Below the pieces are notes generated by a model. The model saw nothing but the letters and a program-made list of their open reading frames with translations. It had not been told where the DNA came from and did not search any database. The position numbers and the translations under genes were made by a program. A DNA stretch of 64,000 nt from Longimicrobium sp. (lineage in GTDB: Bacteria > Gemmatimonadota > Gemmatimonadetes > Longimicrobiales > Longimicrobiaceae): assembly GCA_036377595.1 (NCBI GenBank), contig DASUYB010000198.1, positions 1 through 64,000 of the forward strand, read 5' to 3'. Below, piece after piece: positions 40,675 through 45,529 of this stretch; within the stretch, counting starts at the first letter, position 1; every line of letters begins with the position of its first letter.

Positions 40675-40989
40675 GGTCGGTCTCCTGGTGCTGCGGGCGA
40701 GGGGAGGTGCTTCGGCTCTGCGTGCGGCCTCTACGCGAGGGTCGGGAGAAAAGATTCAGCCGCGTCCACGATCGCCAAAGTGCCTTCTGGTAGGCACTTG
40801 GGAAGGGTCGGCCGGATCTCCCGGGTCACCGGGATGCGAAGTCGGTGTCTCGATGCCACTTGACCATCATCCCCCCGGCTCTTACGCTGTGTCCCGCTCG
40901 TGGCACGGCCACGATTTTCGCGGCGCAGACAGGGCCCGCGCGGCCCTCGGCGACACTACATCGGCACGGATTCCAGGAGACCGGAAGGT
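40675..40989. other. Divergent intergenic region
   Basis: About 315 bases between the divergent adaptor and acidic-protein genes. It holds a short perfect inverted repeat AAGTGCC/GGCACTT (40778-40799) about 105 bases upstream of the adaptor start, which could be an operator. No gene is supportable. Confidence 0.5.
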
Positions 40990-41331
40990 ATGGCAGACTC
41001 ACGCGTGGACGAGCGCTTCGACGAGCTGGTGTCGCAGACGCACGACTGGGTTGAATCGGCGGTGGCGCTCGACGAGGGGCACTTTCCCACCGAGCTGCTG
41101 AGCGACCTGCGCGACCTGATCGACGAGCTGAAGGACTTCCTGGAAGACGAGGGCACCGGGCGCCGCTCCGAGGTGCTGGAGCTGTTCGTGAGCCCCGAGA
41201 TGGCCGAGATCATGACGCGCTTCCCGCGCGTCCGCCGGCTGCTGGAGAGCGCCTGGGGGTCGCAGCTCACGGAGATGATCGAGGAGGAGAGCGGCTACGA
41301 CCCCGAGGGCGACGACGAGGACGACGACTAG
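40990..41331 (+). CDS. Small acidic protein, unknown
   Basis: 113 residues, strongly acidic, ending DPEGDDEDDD. Helical content is likely: SRVDERFDELVSQTHDWVES, then LLSDLRDLIDELKDFLEDEG, then EVLELFVSPEMAEIMTRFPR. No signal peptide or known domain. ATG at 40990 follows GGAGACCGGAAGGT. It is single-gene, with a bidirectional terminator downstream. Confidence 0.65.
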   Translation: MADSRVDERFDELVSQTHDWVESAVALDEGHFPTELLSDLRDLIDELKDFLEDEGTGRRSEVLELFVSPEMAEIMTRFPRVRRLLESAWGSQLTEMIEEESGYDPEGDDEDDD

Positions 41332-41399: not shown

Positions 41400-41852
41400 T
41401 TACTCCCCGTCGTCCTCCGTGACGCCGTCTTCCTCCGCGTCGTCCTCCCCTTCCGGCCAGGGCCACTCGTCGTCGAGCCAGGTGGCGGCCAGGCGGTCGA
41501 GCCACTCGGGGCGGCCGGGGCCCTGCGCGTCGTACACGCGCTGCAGCGAGCGCACCACCCGGCGGATGGCTTCCAGGCGGTGCTCGGGCGGCAGGTCGCG
41601 CACCAGCGCGCCGATGGCCACCTCCACCCCCTCCACGGTCAGGTCCGAGCGCGGCCGGGTGCCCTCGCGCTCGGCCCAGTCCTGCAGCTTCTGGCGGCTG
41701 CGCGCGTACGGCGTGCCGCCCGAAAGGAACTTCTCCAGGCCGCTGGGGCTCATCCCCACCTGCCGCGCCACCGATCGCAGCGACGTGGCCTGCACCCGGG
41801 TGGCCACCGTCTCGCGCAGCCGCTCCAGGTTGCTCAGGGGCCGGTCGTTCAT
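41400..41852 (-). CDS. HTH regulator-like protein, family A member 1
   Basis: 150 residues. The N-terminal ~60 residues contain an HTH: TSLRSVARQVGMSPSGLEKF followed by LSGGTPYARSRQKLQDWAER. The pattern resembles the XRE/lambda-repressor HTH, but there is no cI-like C-terminus. The middle (DLTVEGVEVAIGALVRDLPP) is helical and the tail is very acidic (EGEDDAEEDGVTEDDGE). It is a clear paralogue of the gene at 45143. ATG at 41852 follows GGAGGCAACTGCGG. Divergent from the TPR gene, whose expression it might control (inference). Confidence 0.7.
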   Translation of the reverse strand: MNDRPLSNLERLRETVATRVQATSLRSVARQVGMSPSGLEKFLSGGTPYARSRQKLQDWAEREGTRPRSDLTVEGVEVAIGALVRDLPPEHRLEAIRRVVRSLQRVYDAQGPGRPEWLDRLAATWLDDEWPWPEGEDDAEEDGVTEDDGE

Positions 41853-42073
41853 CCGCAGTTGCCTCCGCAATCAAGAGGACGGCAGATTAGGGGGACAAAA
41901 TGGACGTGACTATAAGTTTACTCTGTCCGGTTTCCCCGCGCAAGGCGTGGAGCCGTCAACATGTATGGCTCCTCCGGGGCGGTCGATTCACGTAGTGGAC
42001 GAGTGCGCTTTCGGCGCTTAGAATACGCCGCAAAAGATTGCCACTCCACTTCGACCCGCAGCCGGAGCCGTCC

Positions 42074-43351
42074 GTGCCTCTTCCGACCGCTTCCGCCCAC
42101 GACGACCCCGCGTCGCCCGCGTTTCCCACCGGCACCACGCTGGCGCCGGACCTTCTCTCCGAGCTCCCGCACGACGCCGCGTTCGCGCTCTGGCAGGTGC
42201 TGCGCTGCGTGGAGCTGTGGACCGCGGAGCCCGAGGGTGCCCGCCGCGAGGTGTTCGACCGCGCGTACATGGAACGCTGGGAGCGGTCGCTCCTGACCGG
42301 CCCGCTGGAGCCGGAGGCGCGCTTTCCGCTGGCCGTGGTGGTCAGCGAGCTGGCGGCGGCCACGGCGGGCGGCGGGCGGCTGCCCTGGGCGTGCGTGTGC
42401 GTGGCCGACTGGGCGCTGGGGCGCGGCGCCCGGCGCGCGGGGCTGGCCTTCGCCGAGGCTGCGGCGCGCACGGCGCCGCAGCAGCCGCGCTACGCCTGGC
42501 TGGCGGGACGGCTCCTGCGCGGCCACGGCAACGCGCGCGACGGCGAGCGATGGCTTCGCCGCGCCCACCGCCTTGCCGTCGTCCAGCGCGACTGGGAAAC
42601 CCAGGCGCGCTCGCTGACCTCGCTGGGAAACGTCTGCCTGGAAACCGGGCGGTATCCTGAGGCGCGGGGCTACCATTCCCGCGCGCTGCGCATCTCCCGC
42701 CGCTTCCGCCTGCGCGAGCAGGAGGCGATGGCGCTGCACGACCTGTTCGTGATCGCCTCGGTCGAGGGGAGTCGCGGCGAGGCCGAGCGGTACGCCCGCG
42801 GTGCGCTCGAAGCATACGGGCCGTTTGACCGCCGCATCCCGGCGCTGGCGCACGACCTGGCGTATTCGTGGATGGAGCAGGGATACTTCGCACGCGCCTT
42901 GAGCTTGTTCTCCGCGCTTCGGCCTTACTTCTCCCGGCCGAACGAAGAGCTGCGCATGGTGGCGAGCGCCGGTCGTGCCGCGGCCTTCGGAGGCGACCGG
43001 GTGCGCTTCGATGCGCTGCGTGCAGACGCGGAGGAACTCGTTCCGCGGTTGGAGACCAGTGAGACACTGGCGGCCTCGCTGCTCGATCTCGCCTGGGGTG
43101 CCGTCGCGCTACGCGCTTGGGAGACGGCGACCGAACTGGCGACCCGCGCAGGGGAGGTGGCCCGCTCGCGCAGCGAATCGGACACGGTGGTGTTCGCCGA
43201 CCTGGTCATCGCCGCGGCCGAACGAAAAGATGCGAGCGAGATCGACAGGGTGTCGCCGGTGCGAATCACCGCGGGTGCGGGGGGAGAGCAACTGGCGGAG
43301 GATTTCGTGGCGACGCTGGACCGCGCCCGCGCCCGCGCAGGTGCTGCGTGA
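42074..43351 (+). CDS. TPR-repeat protein
   Basis: 425 residues, soluble. TPR-like helical pairs are visible from about 150 onward: ARSLTSLGNVCLETGRYPEA, RGYHSRALRISRRFRLREQE, ERYARGALEAYGPFDRRIPA, LAYSWMEQGYFARALSLFSA. No enzymatic domain is seen. TPR proteins of this kind often bind peptides or other proteins and occur with HTH regulators in signalling pairs. Start is uncertain: the GTG at 42074 has CGGAG six bases upstream, whereas a TTG at 42038 is in frame. It lies head-to-head with an HTH gene. Confidence 0.7.
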   Translation: MPLPTASAHDDPASPAFPTGTTLAPDLLSELPHDAAFALWQVLRCVELWTAEPEGARREVFDRAYMERWERSLLTGPLEPEARFPLAVVVSELAAATAGGGRLPWACVCVADWALGRGARRAGLAFAEAAARTAPQQPRYAWLAGRLLRGHGNARDGERWLRRAHRLAVVQRDWETQARSLTSLGNVCLETGRYPEARGYHSRALRISRRFRLREQEAMALHDLFVIASVEGSRGEAERYARGALEAYGPFDRRIPALAHDLAYSWMEQGYFARALSLFSALRPYFSRPNEELRMVASAGRAAAFGGDRVRFDALRADAEELVPRLETSETLAASLLDLAWGAVALRAWETATELATRAGEVARSRSESDTVVFADLVIAAAERKDASEIDRVSPVRITAGAGGEQLAEDFVATLDRARARAGAA

Positions 43352-43529
43352 GCGGCCTCGGGGTGATGAACGCTCTGGTGACCAAGCACGATCCGGACGT
43401 CCGCGGCTCGTCCGCCCGCATCATGGGAGCTGCGTGGCGGACGAGGCCGTGGAGCCGGCGGTGCATGAGACTGGAGTCGGGTGGATGCGGTCGGTCGCGA
43501 TGTGGCGGGGCTGCTTCGTGTCGTGTTGC

Positions 43530-43712
43530 TCAGCCCCCAGAGCCGAGGTATCCTGGCCCGCGCTTCGTCGTGTCGGTCGTGGTCCCTGCGTCGGTCGCAC
43601 CGTCTGCGGAGGGCCGGCCAGGCGCACTGGACGGGGCAGTGGGGGAGGCGGCGGTGCACGCGGCCATCACCAGGGCCGCGGCGCACGCGGCAAGCATTAC
43701 CTTGGCTTTCAT
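43530..43712 (-). CDS. Tiny lipoprotein or secreted peptide
   Basis: 60 residues. The ATG (43712) follows GGAGGAACCC. The signal peptide MLAACAAALVMAAC ends in a lipobox Cys. The mature ~40 residues are Ser/Thr/Pro/Asp-rich without structure, ending KRGPGYLGSGG. Too small for an enzyme; it may be a surface decoration, or a peptide whose C-terminus is the functional part. It is convergent with the TPR gene and divergent from the receiver-HTH gene. Confidence 0.55.
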   Translation of the reverse strand: MKAKVMLAACAAALVMAACTAASPTAPSSAPGRPSADGATDAGTTTDTTKRGPGYLGSGG

Positions 43713-43840
43713 GGGTTCCTCCGCAGAGGTTGAGGTGGGCGGACGCCGGTGGTTGCGCGCCCAACCTCGCCGCCTAAACTGGACACCGTCAACGTATTTC
43801 AACGCAGAAAAGACCGCCCCGAACGCGTCGAACGGTCCCG

Positions 43841-44680
43841 ATGAAGCGGCGTAAGGCGCGCCGTGTCATCGTGTTGGAGGGAGTGGAGCTGCCGGCGCTC
43901 CACGATCTCGGGCCGCCCTACGTGGTGGAGCTGCCGGTGGGGTGGGGCGACCTGGACGACATCGTGCGCCACGCGCCGCCGTCGGCCGTGGTGCTGCTGG
44001 ACCCGTACGCCGGCCGCCGCGCGGGCGAGGCCTTCCCCCGGCTGCACGACCTGCTGCGGCGCTACCCGTCGCTCACCGTGGTGGCGGCCACCGAGCTCCG
44101 CCCCGAGGCCATCGCCGACGTGGGCACGCTGCTGGAGTGGGGCGTTTCGGAGGTGATCGACACCGGGCCCGAGTCCACGCCGCGCGGGATCCACGCGCGG
44201 CTGCGGCAGGCGCACGCGCGGCCGCTCAAGCGCAGCGTGGAGCGGGCGCTGTCGCCGTTCGTGAGCTCCGAAGCCAGGAACCTGCTGATGGGGGCGGCCG
44301 AGGTGGCCGTGGAGGGCGGGGGCGCGCCGGACCTGGCGAAGGCGATGGCGGTGGCGCCGCGCACGCTCACCGAGCGGTGCACGCGCGCGGACCTGCCGCC
44401 GCCGCGCCAGGTGCAGGCGTGGATGCGAATCCTCCTCGCCTGCATGCTGCTGGACGACCCGGGGCGGACGGTGTACGCGGCCGCGTGGGCGTGCGGCTAC
44501 TCGACCGACCGGTCGCTGCGGCGCGCGGTGTCGGCGTTCGTGGGCGCCGACAGCACCACGCTGCGCCGCGGCGGCGCGTTCACGCAGGCGGCCAAGGCGT
44601 TCAACGAGCGCCTGCGCGAGATCCGCGAAGCCGCCCGCGAGCGCCGCAAGGCCGAGCGCACCAACGGCCGCGGCGGGTGA
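43841..44680 (+). CDS. Transcription regulator: receiver-like N-terminus and AraC-like HTH
   Basis: 279 residues. Residues 1-110 alternate strand and helix like a response-regulator receiver (PSAVVLLDPYAGRRAGEAFP, SLTVVAATELRPEAIADVGT), with an Asp at the end of the LLDP strand. The acidic pocket is not convincing, so it may be a degenerate receiver. The C-terminal part (about 135-250) holds an AraC-like double HTH: DLAKAMAVAPRTLTERCTRA, then VYAAAWACGYSTDRSLRRAV. The domain plan of the HTH recalls the pair at 13426 and 14136. The tail is strongly basic. No cognate kinase is adjacent. Confidence 0.65.
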   Translation: MKRRKARRVIVLEGVELPALHDLGPPYVVELPVGWGDLDDIVRHAPPSAVVLLDPYAGRRAGEAFPRLHDLLRRYPSLTVVAATELRPEAIADVGTLLEWGVSEVIDTGPESTPRGIHARLRQAHARPLKRSVERALSPFVSSEARNLLMGAAEVAVEGGGAPDLAKAMAVAPRTLTERCTRADLPPPRQVQAWMRILLACMLLDDPGRTVYAAAWACGYSTDRSLRRAVSAFVGADSTTLRRGGAFTQAAKAFNERLREIREAARERRKAERTNGRGG

Positions 44681-44843
44681 TCATGCGCGGGCGCGACAGA
44701 CGCATCCTGGCCGTCTGCACGCGTGCCGATGGCGAGTGCGGACGGACTTGACGCCTCTCGTCTGGCTGCCGAAAGGTTCTAGCGTGAGGGAAGGCGCGAC
44801 GGTGATTTACGGAGATGCAATTTCCCTTTTCGGAGGTATGGAG

Positions 44844-45071
44844 ATGACGAGTGCGCCTGAGCAGAACGCCGAACCCGAGTGGGTGAAGCTCTTGCGCGCC
44901 CGCGGCTTCGAGGTGGATGGGGGCGAGGGCGGCGAGCTGCCGTTCGATCCGCCGGCCGAATTTTACGCGTGGGCTCCGCGACGCCGGTGTCCCGGTCTTC
45001 GGATGGTGCTCGGTTGGATCCCCGGGCTCCGGCCGAATTGGGCAGACGGAGCGAGGCGGCGGGCCCGCTAG
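44844..45071 (+). CDS. Small hypothetical protein, possibly frameshifted
   Basis: 75 codons. ATG at 44844 is seven bases after CGGAGG. The first 40 residues (EPEWVKLLRARGFEVDGGEG and ELPFDPPAEFYAW) look protein-like. After that the frame becomes Arg-rich (APRRRCPGLRM). In the next frame, the codons that follow the same W read LRDAGVPVFGWCSVG. This suggests a one-base indel near 44972, either a real mutation or a sequencing slip. Function unknown. Confidence 0.4.
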   Translation: MTSAPEQNAEPEWVKLLRARGFEVDGGEGGELPFDPPAEFYAWAPRRRCPGLRMVLGWIPGLRPNWADGARRRAR

Positions 45072-45142
45072 TACGGAACGAAAGTGCGGGGACGCGGAGC
45101 ATCGGCTCCACGTCCCCGCGCGCTTCCTTGCACCTGAGCAGG

Positions 45143-45529
45143 TCAGAATCCCCCGGCTTCGCGGAGCTCGGCGAGCCAGACGGGGCGGGGGGTGCTGGTC
45201 TCGCGGCAGCGGCGGTCGAGCACGGCCACCAGCTCGGCCACGGTGGGCTCGCGGTGCGCCTCGGGAAAGTGCTGCACCAGCAGCCCCAGCGCGGCCGAGG
45301 CGGACTCCTGCGTGAGCTCGGCGTTGCGGCTCTGGATCTCGCGGATGTACCACTCGGTCAGCTTGCGCGTGGTCTTCATGTACGGGTCGGCCCCGTCGAT
45401 GAAGCCGCGCAGCCCCGTGGGGCTCATGCCGATGTCGCGCGCGGCGTGACGCAGCGAGGTGGCGTCGACGTACAGCCGCGCCGCCTGCCGCAGCGTCTGG
45501 ATCGGCGGACCCTCCCTGGTCGACGCCAT
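45143..45529 (-). CDS. HTH regulator-like protein, family A member 2
   Basis: 128 residues. It aligns with the gene at 41400: DATSLRHAARDIGMSPTGLR versus ATSLRSVARQVGMSPSGLEK, then a shared PY and KLTEWYIRE versus KLQDWAERE. The middle section (ELTQESASAALGLLVQHFPE) and a final RPVWLAEL versus RPEWLDRL also agree. The acidic tail of member 1 is absent. Presumed DNA-binding; target unknown. ATG at 45529 starts a short lead to the HTH. Confidence 0.7.
   Translation of the reverse strand: MASTREGPPIQTLRQAARLYVDATSLRHAARDIGMSPTGLRGFIDGADPYMKTTRKLTEWYIREIQSRNAELTQESASAALGLLVQHFPEAHREPTVAELVAVLDRRCRETSTPRPVWLAELREAGGF

Follow-up and report, generated by a model that had tools for sequence, protein, structure and literature searches.

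Does a tetratricopeptide repeat (TPR) protein encoded tail to tail with a 60-residue lipoprotein listen to a peptide cut from that lipoprotein? The question arises at positions 41,400–45,529 of the 64,000-nt stretch analyzed here (the window; Longimicrobium sp., GenBank assembly GCA_036377595.1, contig DASUYB010000198.1, positions 1–64,000, from a 7.2 Mb genome in 208 contigs). The original prediction for this patch named five genes: two sister helix-turn-helix (HTH) genes flanking a TPR protein, a tiny exported peptide, and a receiver-HTH regulator. All five are present. We consider it probable, though well short of certain, that the patch represents one of many copies of a peptide-signalling module that works like Rap-Phr of Bacillus. 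The gene module is conserved, its precursors share an architecture, the repeats within them are conserved at the peptide level, and a partner protein resembles response regulators; the TPR protein is predicted to have a Rap-like fold.

A TPR gene and a small lipoprotein gene recur as a pair

The 60-residue frame starts with ATG behind a GGAGGA, carries the lipobox VMAAC with Cys19 (called by our own sequence pattern), and ends in RGPGYLGSGG. Its gene and the TPR gene lie tail to tail, their stop codons 178 bp apart. Counting the window copy, this genome encodes 18 copies of the TPR protein (20 rows at E ≤ 0.01 minus two short or weak rows), and 13 of these loci have a small lipoprotein gene in the same tail-to-tail position. 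A search of the genome with the small peptide itself gave weak matches, several adjoining TPR paralogues. Paralogous tails include GGMLGSGG, RGGHMLGSGA, GGQTLGSGH, and RGGIFAGSGN. Further weak TPR matches lie at G000:C122:38247-38564 (L050) and G000:C197:1294-1629 (L051); one resembles the N-terminal part only.

We then surveyed 99 TPR rows from 20 genomes (L091 and L093 were dropped as repeats) under a fixed rule: a lipobox open reading frame (ORF) of 35–140 aa at most 900 bp from the TPR gene. A convergent precursor was found in 61/99 rows, 51 of them with a tail motif of the Gly-Ser-Gly (GSG) type; L102 equals L178, hence 60 precursors at 98 distinct TPR loci. The control positions gave 4/99 (one with the motif) downstream on the same strand, 4/99 (three) upstream and divergent, and 3/99 (none) upstream on the same strand, and other genes in the same loci had a precursor in 6/204 cases (one with the motif). 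The original prediction asked whether TPR gene, HTH, and small peptide occur together in other genomes, and named the lack of a conserved neighbourhood in relatives as refuting. Such a lack is contradicted: the pair of TPR gene and peptide was found at dozens of paralogous loci, and the order HTH–TPR–peptide–regulator also occurs at L128, L141, L151, and L180. In a second set of loci, of which 18/20 were new (L225 and L219 repeat L105 and L110), the rule picked out a precursor in eight of 20 rows and seven of the 18 new loci, and all three control positions stood at 0. At L212, L213, and L214 a precursor appears once the lipobox pattern is relaxed. The three belong to a single genus, of a different family within the order, and have a TPR–precursor–regulator module with tails GGFLGSGG or GGFLGSGS.

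The precursors have further features in common. A Shine-Dalgarno-like sequence precedes 48/60 of them versus 243/1715 random ATGs, the last G-x-G stands one residue from the C terminus in 43/60, and the residues before the motif are most often D-G or R-G. A profile built from 20 precursors gave 99 rows in this genome, 13 of which extend to profile position 50 or beyond; 12 of these 13 sit at TPR loci (two within the same precursor). Rows that stop earlier are known precursors with inserts or the signal-peptide part of longer frames. For the TPR protein, profile A1 matched 21/21 genomes of the family, with up to 24 copies each. Elsewhere in the order it gave two weak matches among 20 genomes of other families (E ≤ 1e-12). 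A phylum-wide sample of 150 genomes yielded eight at E ≤ 1e-30, of which five belong to a different family within this order.

In a clustering of the ORFs around the pairs, the TPR family (at 80 loci) and the regulator (at 40) alone were widespread, and no extra partner gene was; the remaining clusters cover at most eight loci and appear to be local synteny, several of them consisting of doubtful overlapping frames. No 7- or 8-mer before precursor and regulator rose above the shuffled maxima as a shared operator (60 loci). Coordinates are given in Table 1.

Table 1. Genes and sequence features of the patch, in positions of the window
Feature	Position	Strand	Remarks
Family A HTH protein 1 (HTH-A1)	41400-41870	-	Divergent from TPR gene; peripheral component
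TPR protein, proposed intracellular peptide receptor	42038-43351	+	Pfam TPR_12, paralogues, model
60-aa lipoprotein-type precursor, proposed pro-pheromone	43530-43712	-	Lipobox, Shine-Dalgarno-like sequence, paralogous arrangement
Candidate mature peptide RGPGYLGSGG at the precursor C terminus	43533-43562	-	Exact ends inferred; GSG tail in paralogues
GGAGGA, ribosome-binding-like, before the precursor ATG	43717-43722	-	Sequence
Divergent intergenic region between precursor and regulator, 128 bp	43713-43840	.	Possible shared control region, from gene layout
Receiver-like + AraC-type HTH regulator, proposed output protein	43841-44680	+	Pfam HTH_18, Foldseek
Family A HTH protein 2 (HTH-A2)	45143-45529	-	Peripheral component

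Tail repeats and the fold predicted for the TPR protein

Twelve precursors carry two to four copies of the tail. Copies are alike within a precursor and not between precursors (similarity 0.63 vs. 0.25, permutation p 2e-4; a few of the units compared are overlaps of the search pattern). Copies agree at 156 residue positions, and at 87 of these the codons differ, so recent duplication does not explain the identity, which, judged from this codon divergence, is maintained at the level of the peptide. The precursor at L222 (G010:C557), convergent to its TPR gene, ends in four copies of NQGTYGPKV with synonymous differences among them; this tail type is without the GSG core. Repeated units of other precursors delimit the motif. 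As a sequence pattern, this matches the expectation for a pheromone precursor with several peptide copies: precursors of the RRNPPA/Phr type are described as having one to four peptide repeats (PMC11343458), and the tails appear compatible with an RRNPPA mature peptide (5–10 aa, usually C-terminal, sometimes repeated one to four times).

The TPR protein of the window (437 aa from TTG 42038, the first start codon; 425 aa from GTG 42074) matches Pfam TPR_12 at 4.7e-14. An AlphaFold2 model, made from a four-sequence alignment with two full-length rows, is an all-helical TPR solenoid with a mean predicted local distance difference test score (pLDDT) of 83.4. Among the matches listed by VIA-align, LGN came first (Z 23.1), followed by RapH with Spo0F (Z 20.4, 287 aligned residues, 4.0 Å), RapI (19.9), RapF (19.1), pLS20 Rap (18.8), MalT domain III (18.6), and NprR (17.7); absence of a family from this list does not exclude it. 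Rap structures are among the best bacterial fold matches of the model, and a common TPR fold is no proof of common function. Profile A1 also found RapJ (4gyo) at 1.4e-7, among 95 sequences that are mostly generic TPR proteins, many scoring better. Neither Pfam nor NCBIfam gave an HTH or other DNA-binding domain in the protein. The N terminus of the model is of low confidence, then helical and continuous with the solenoid. The Rap subfamily is marked by an N-terminal three-helix bundle in front of its TPR array; in the model helices 23–95 precede the best-matched repeats, and the alignment starts at residue 78 of RapH and residue 38 of RapF. A defence function was considered and rejected, PADLOC having given generic TPR matches plus one marginal Cas10h match (E 0.0084) and nothing else.

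The regulator and the weighing of alternatives

The regulator carries an HTH of the AraC type (Pfam HTH_18, 4.8e-10), and its N-terminal half models as receiver-like (Foldseek matches StyR, RcsB, and FixJ; model pLDDT 70). Across 39 homologues the acceptor position holds Asp in 74% and Asn in 26%, and at the beta-5 position Lys does not rank with the leading residues. Despite the receiver-like fold, the acceptor Asp and conserved Lys that together define a response regulator are not both kept, and we classify the protein, as modelled, as a degenerate receiver joined to an AraC-type HTH.

A homologue of this regulator lies downstream from the TPR gene in 39/89 rows with at least 600 bp of flank (10 rows were skipped). 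It is accompanied by a precursor in 28 of the 89, with TPR–regulator gaps of 288–746 bp, and stands without one in 11, with gaps of 34–195 bp in 10 and 398 bp in one. Put the other way, gaps of at least 288 bp hold a precursor in 28/29 cases and gaps of at most 195 bp in 0/10. A precursor without this regulator was seen in 31/89 rows, and neither gene in 19/89.

From these observations we infer a course of events that runs from export through cleavage, re-import, and peptide binding to a contact between TPR protein and regulator and the direction of the resulting switch. The small gene would encode a precursor of the lipoprotein type destined for export; the Gly/Ser-rich C-terminal tail of this precursor, here approximately RGPGYLGSGG, would be cut off as a short peptide and re-enter the cell. 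In RRNPPA systems an oligopeptide permease brings the peptide back in; here seven matches in the genome to the peptide-binding-protein family SBP_bac_5 make import possible. Inside, the groove of the TPR protein, which would be cytoplasmic and is encoded alongside, would bind the peptide; the TPR protein may contact the adjacent receiver-like/AraC-type regulator, and peptide binding would switch the activity of that regulator.

Several observations weigh against this Rap-Phr-like mechanism. No precursor was detected at five of the 18 TPR paralogues in this genome, and the motif is internal in some precursors, including that of L151, the nearest relative of the window precursor. A regulator of this family is missing alongside the TPR gene in 50/89 rows, so that naming it as the target is guesswork based on gene position. 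The predicted fold is matched at least as well by LGN and other TPR proteins that bind peptides as by Rap. The GSG core is common to most paralogues, so channel-to-channel specificity is not obvious. Divergence among the TPR proteins is followed by the signal peptides (Mantel rho 0.30, p 0.001) but not by the variable positions of the motif (Mantel rho −0.02, p 0.63).

Co-divergence of receptor and peptide was accordingly dropped as a line of support, TPR identity being uncorrelated with the variable motif positions; descriptively, motif similarity is somewhat higher in the closest TPR pairs (identity ≥0.5), at 0.26 versus 0.16–0.19. L073, L121, L135, L146, L158, L167, and L229 form one syntenic TPR locus, with a neighbour that by eye is mutM-like; the precursor tails differ among the seven, a possible pherotype divergence.

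A common tail core and motif flanks that do not follow the TPR protein would suit a small lipoprotein that stays anchored in the membrane, serving as a sensor or as a component of the envelope, with a glycine-rich tail that contacts another envelope protein and with the TPR protein and regulator doing no more than controlling or accompanying its expression. The lipobox in all scored precursors fits as well, although the scan was constructed to select it. We regard this as rather unlikely: the repeated tails, alike within and not between precursors, have diverged synonymously, and full-length precursor matches are linked near-exclusively to TPR genes. Could TPR protein and regulator instead be an ordinary intracellular pair, with the lipoprotein gene a neighbour or a target of the regulator and no source of a ligand? 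Ten rows do pair the two without the small gene (gaps ≤195 bp), and precursor and regulator are transcribed divergently. Precursors nevertheless accompany TPR genes without this regulator in 31 rows and so go with the TPR gene, and the tails show multi-copy conservation at the peptide level, which makes the pair without a ligand a very improbable account. The notion of a secreted antimicrobial or a ribosomally synthesized and post-translationally modified peptide (RiPP), which the TPR protein would serve in maturation, immunity, or regulation, draws on the glycine-rich makeup, small size, and presumed export of the peptides, a weak match in NCBIfam to the RiPP TPR protein HaaT, and RiPP clusters predicted in a draft L. 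terrae genome (PMC7291104), but it too has little chance of being right: the HaaT match scores 27.2 bits where the cut-off is 1125, for which reason that identity was rejected, ORF clustering found no modifying enzyme or exporter widely recurrent beside the pairs, and the PADLOC matches were generic TPR apart from the marginal one.

The two sister HTH genes, taken in the original prediction as the frame of the patch, were not borne out as part of the module core. HTH-A1 and HTH-A2 are paralogues (38% identity, E 1.7e-19) from a set of 18 copies in this genome at E ≤ 0.01, and such a gene is nearby in only 13/99 TPR rows; they look like a peripheral, clade-specific part. The HTH-A1 counterpart is kept at L128, L141, L151, and L180, and a second HTH is also found at L128, L141, L181, and L182. 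Six of the 18 family A genes lie within ∼2 kb of a TPR paralogue and the rest elsewhere. In two relatives, at L181 (4467-6066) and L182 (282-1896), the sister HTH genes lie on either side of a TPR gene that ends at about half length and loses similarity near residue 184; precursor and regulator are missing there together with the C-terminal half of the TPR protein, which we count in favour of the Rap-Phr-like mechanism. Such a locus is either reduced or ancestral. Adjoining HTH-A1, positions 40900-41331 (+) encode a small acidic protein with no family match over its cut-off.

Comparison with known peptide-sensing systems

Cytoplasmic TPR receptors that read exported and re-imported peptides have so far been described for Bacillota and their phages. 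The RRNPPA family is described for Firmicutes in PMC9765709, and the survey in PMC10075063 states that its search covered only Firmicutes and viruses. A literature search (top-ranked results, with most subscription papers and bioRxiv preprints outside it) found no such system described in Gemmatimonadota.

Gemmatimonadota are a Gram-negative phylum. Whether Longimicrobium and its relatives have independently evolved an intracellular peptide-pheromone network, a Rap-Phr analogue in a Gram-negative phylum, in which a cell has as many as two dozen TPR receptors, each with a lipoprotein-derived GSG-type peptide of its own and several wired to degenerate response regulators, seems to us evenly poised. 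If they have, the peptide-reading TPR strategy arose in or spread to a Gram-negative soil phylum outside Bacillota, and dozens of natural receptor–peptide pairs would become available for specificity studies; the prediction is directly testable with synthetic peptides in a culturable genus.

The hunch in the original prediction that the patch recalls RRNPP-type signalling gained strong comparative support from the paralogous pairs, the multi-copy precursors with synonymous divergence, and the predicted Rap-like fold. Membership in the family did not follow, the TPR protein having no DNA-binding domain and only generic TPR similarity. In size, at 437 or 425 aa, and in TPR content as judged from Pfam TPR matches and the solenoid model rather than from a repeat count, the protein falls within the definition of an RRNPPA receptor, a protein of 250–500 aa with five to nine TPR repeats (PMC9765709, PMC10075063), and the 60-aa precursor, with its pattern lipobox and its place beside the TPR gene, within that of a small precursor (10–120 aa with a secretion signal). 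We do not file the module under RRNPPA because its TPR protein has no HTH and is related to known receptors only generically in sequence, and because the cassette is laid out differently.

LGN/Pins, the best structural match, shares a TPR groove that binds peptide but is a eukaryotic cell-polarity scaffold with no signalling peptide gene. FixJ, StyR, and RcsB share the receiver-like N-terminal domain of the regulator; they differ in having a LuxR-type HTH where the module has an AraC-type one, and the module regulator has no leading Lys at beta-5 and replaces the acceptor Asp by Asn in 26%. NprR, PlcR, PrgX, Rgg, and AimR likewise are TPR receptors adjoining a small peptide gene, and the NprR fold matches the TPR model (Z 17.7), yet those receptors have an HTH domain, as do all RRNPPA subfamilies except Rap at the N terminus, and none was found here.

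Rap-Phr, of the RRNPPA superfamily, is also among the closest known systems. It differs in belonging to Bacillota rather than Gemmatimonadota and in the placement of phr, which overlaps the 3′ end of rap in the same direction (PMC3601965), whereas the precursor gene here is convergent; the lipobox-type signal, the GSG-centred tails, and a degenerate-receiver AraC regulator encoded alongside are peculiar to the module, and sequence similarity is at the generic TPR level. Response regulators are targets of Rap proteins (PMC3601965), a parallel to the proposed target here that is suggestive only, and TPR–regulator pairs without a peptide gene parallel the rap genes without phr noted in the same paper. 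Both systems have a TPR receptor of 250–500 aa without a DNA-binding domain and with many paralogues per genome, an adjacent small precursor that is exported (here by prediction) and carries a C-terminal, sometimes repeated, peptide, and, on the TPR side, a fold that in our model matches RapH, RapI, RapF, and pLS20 Rap.

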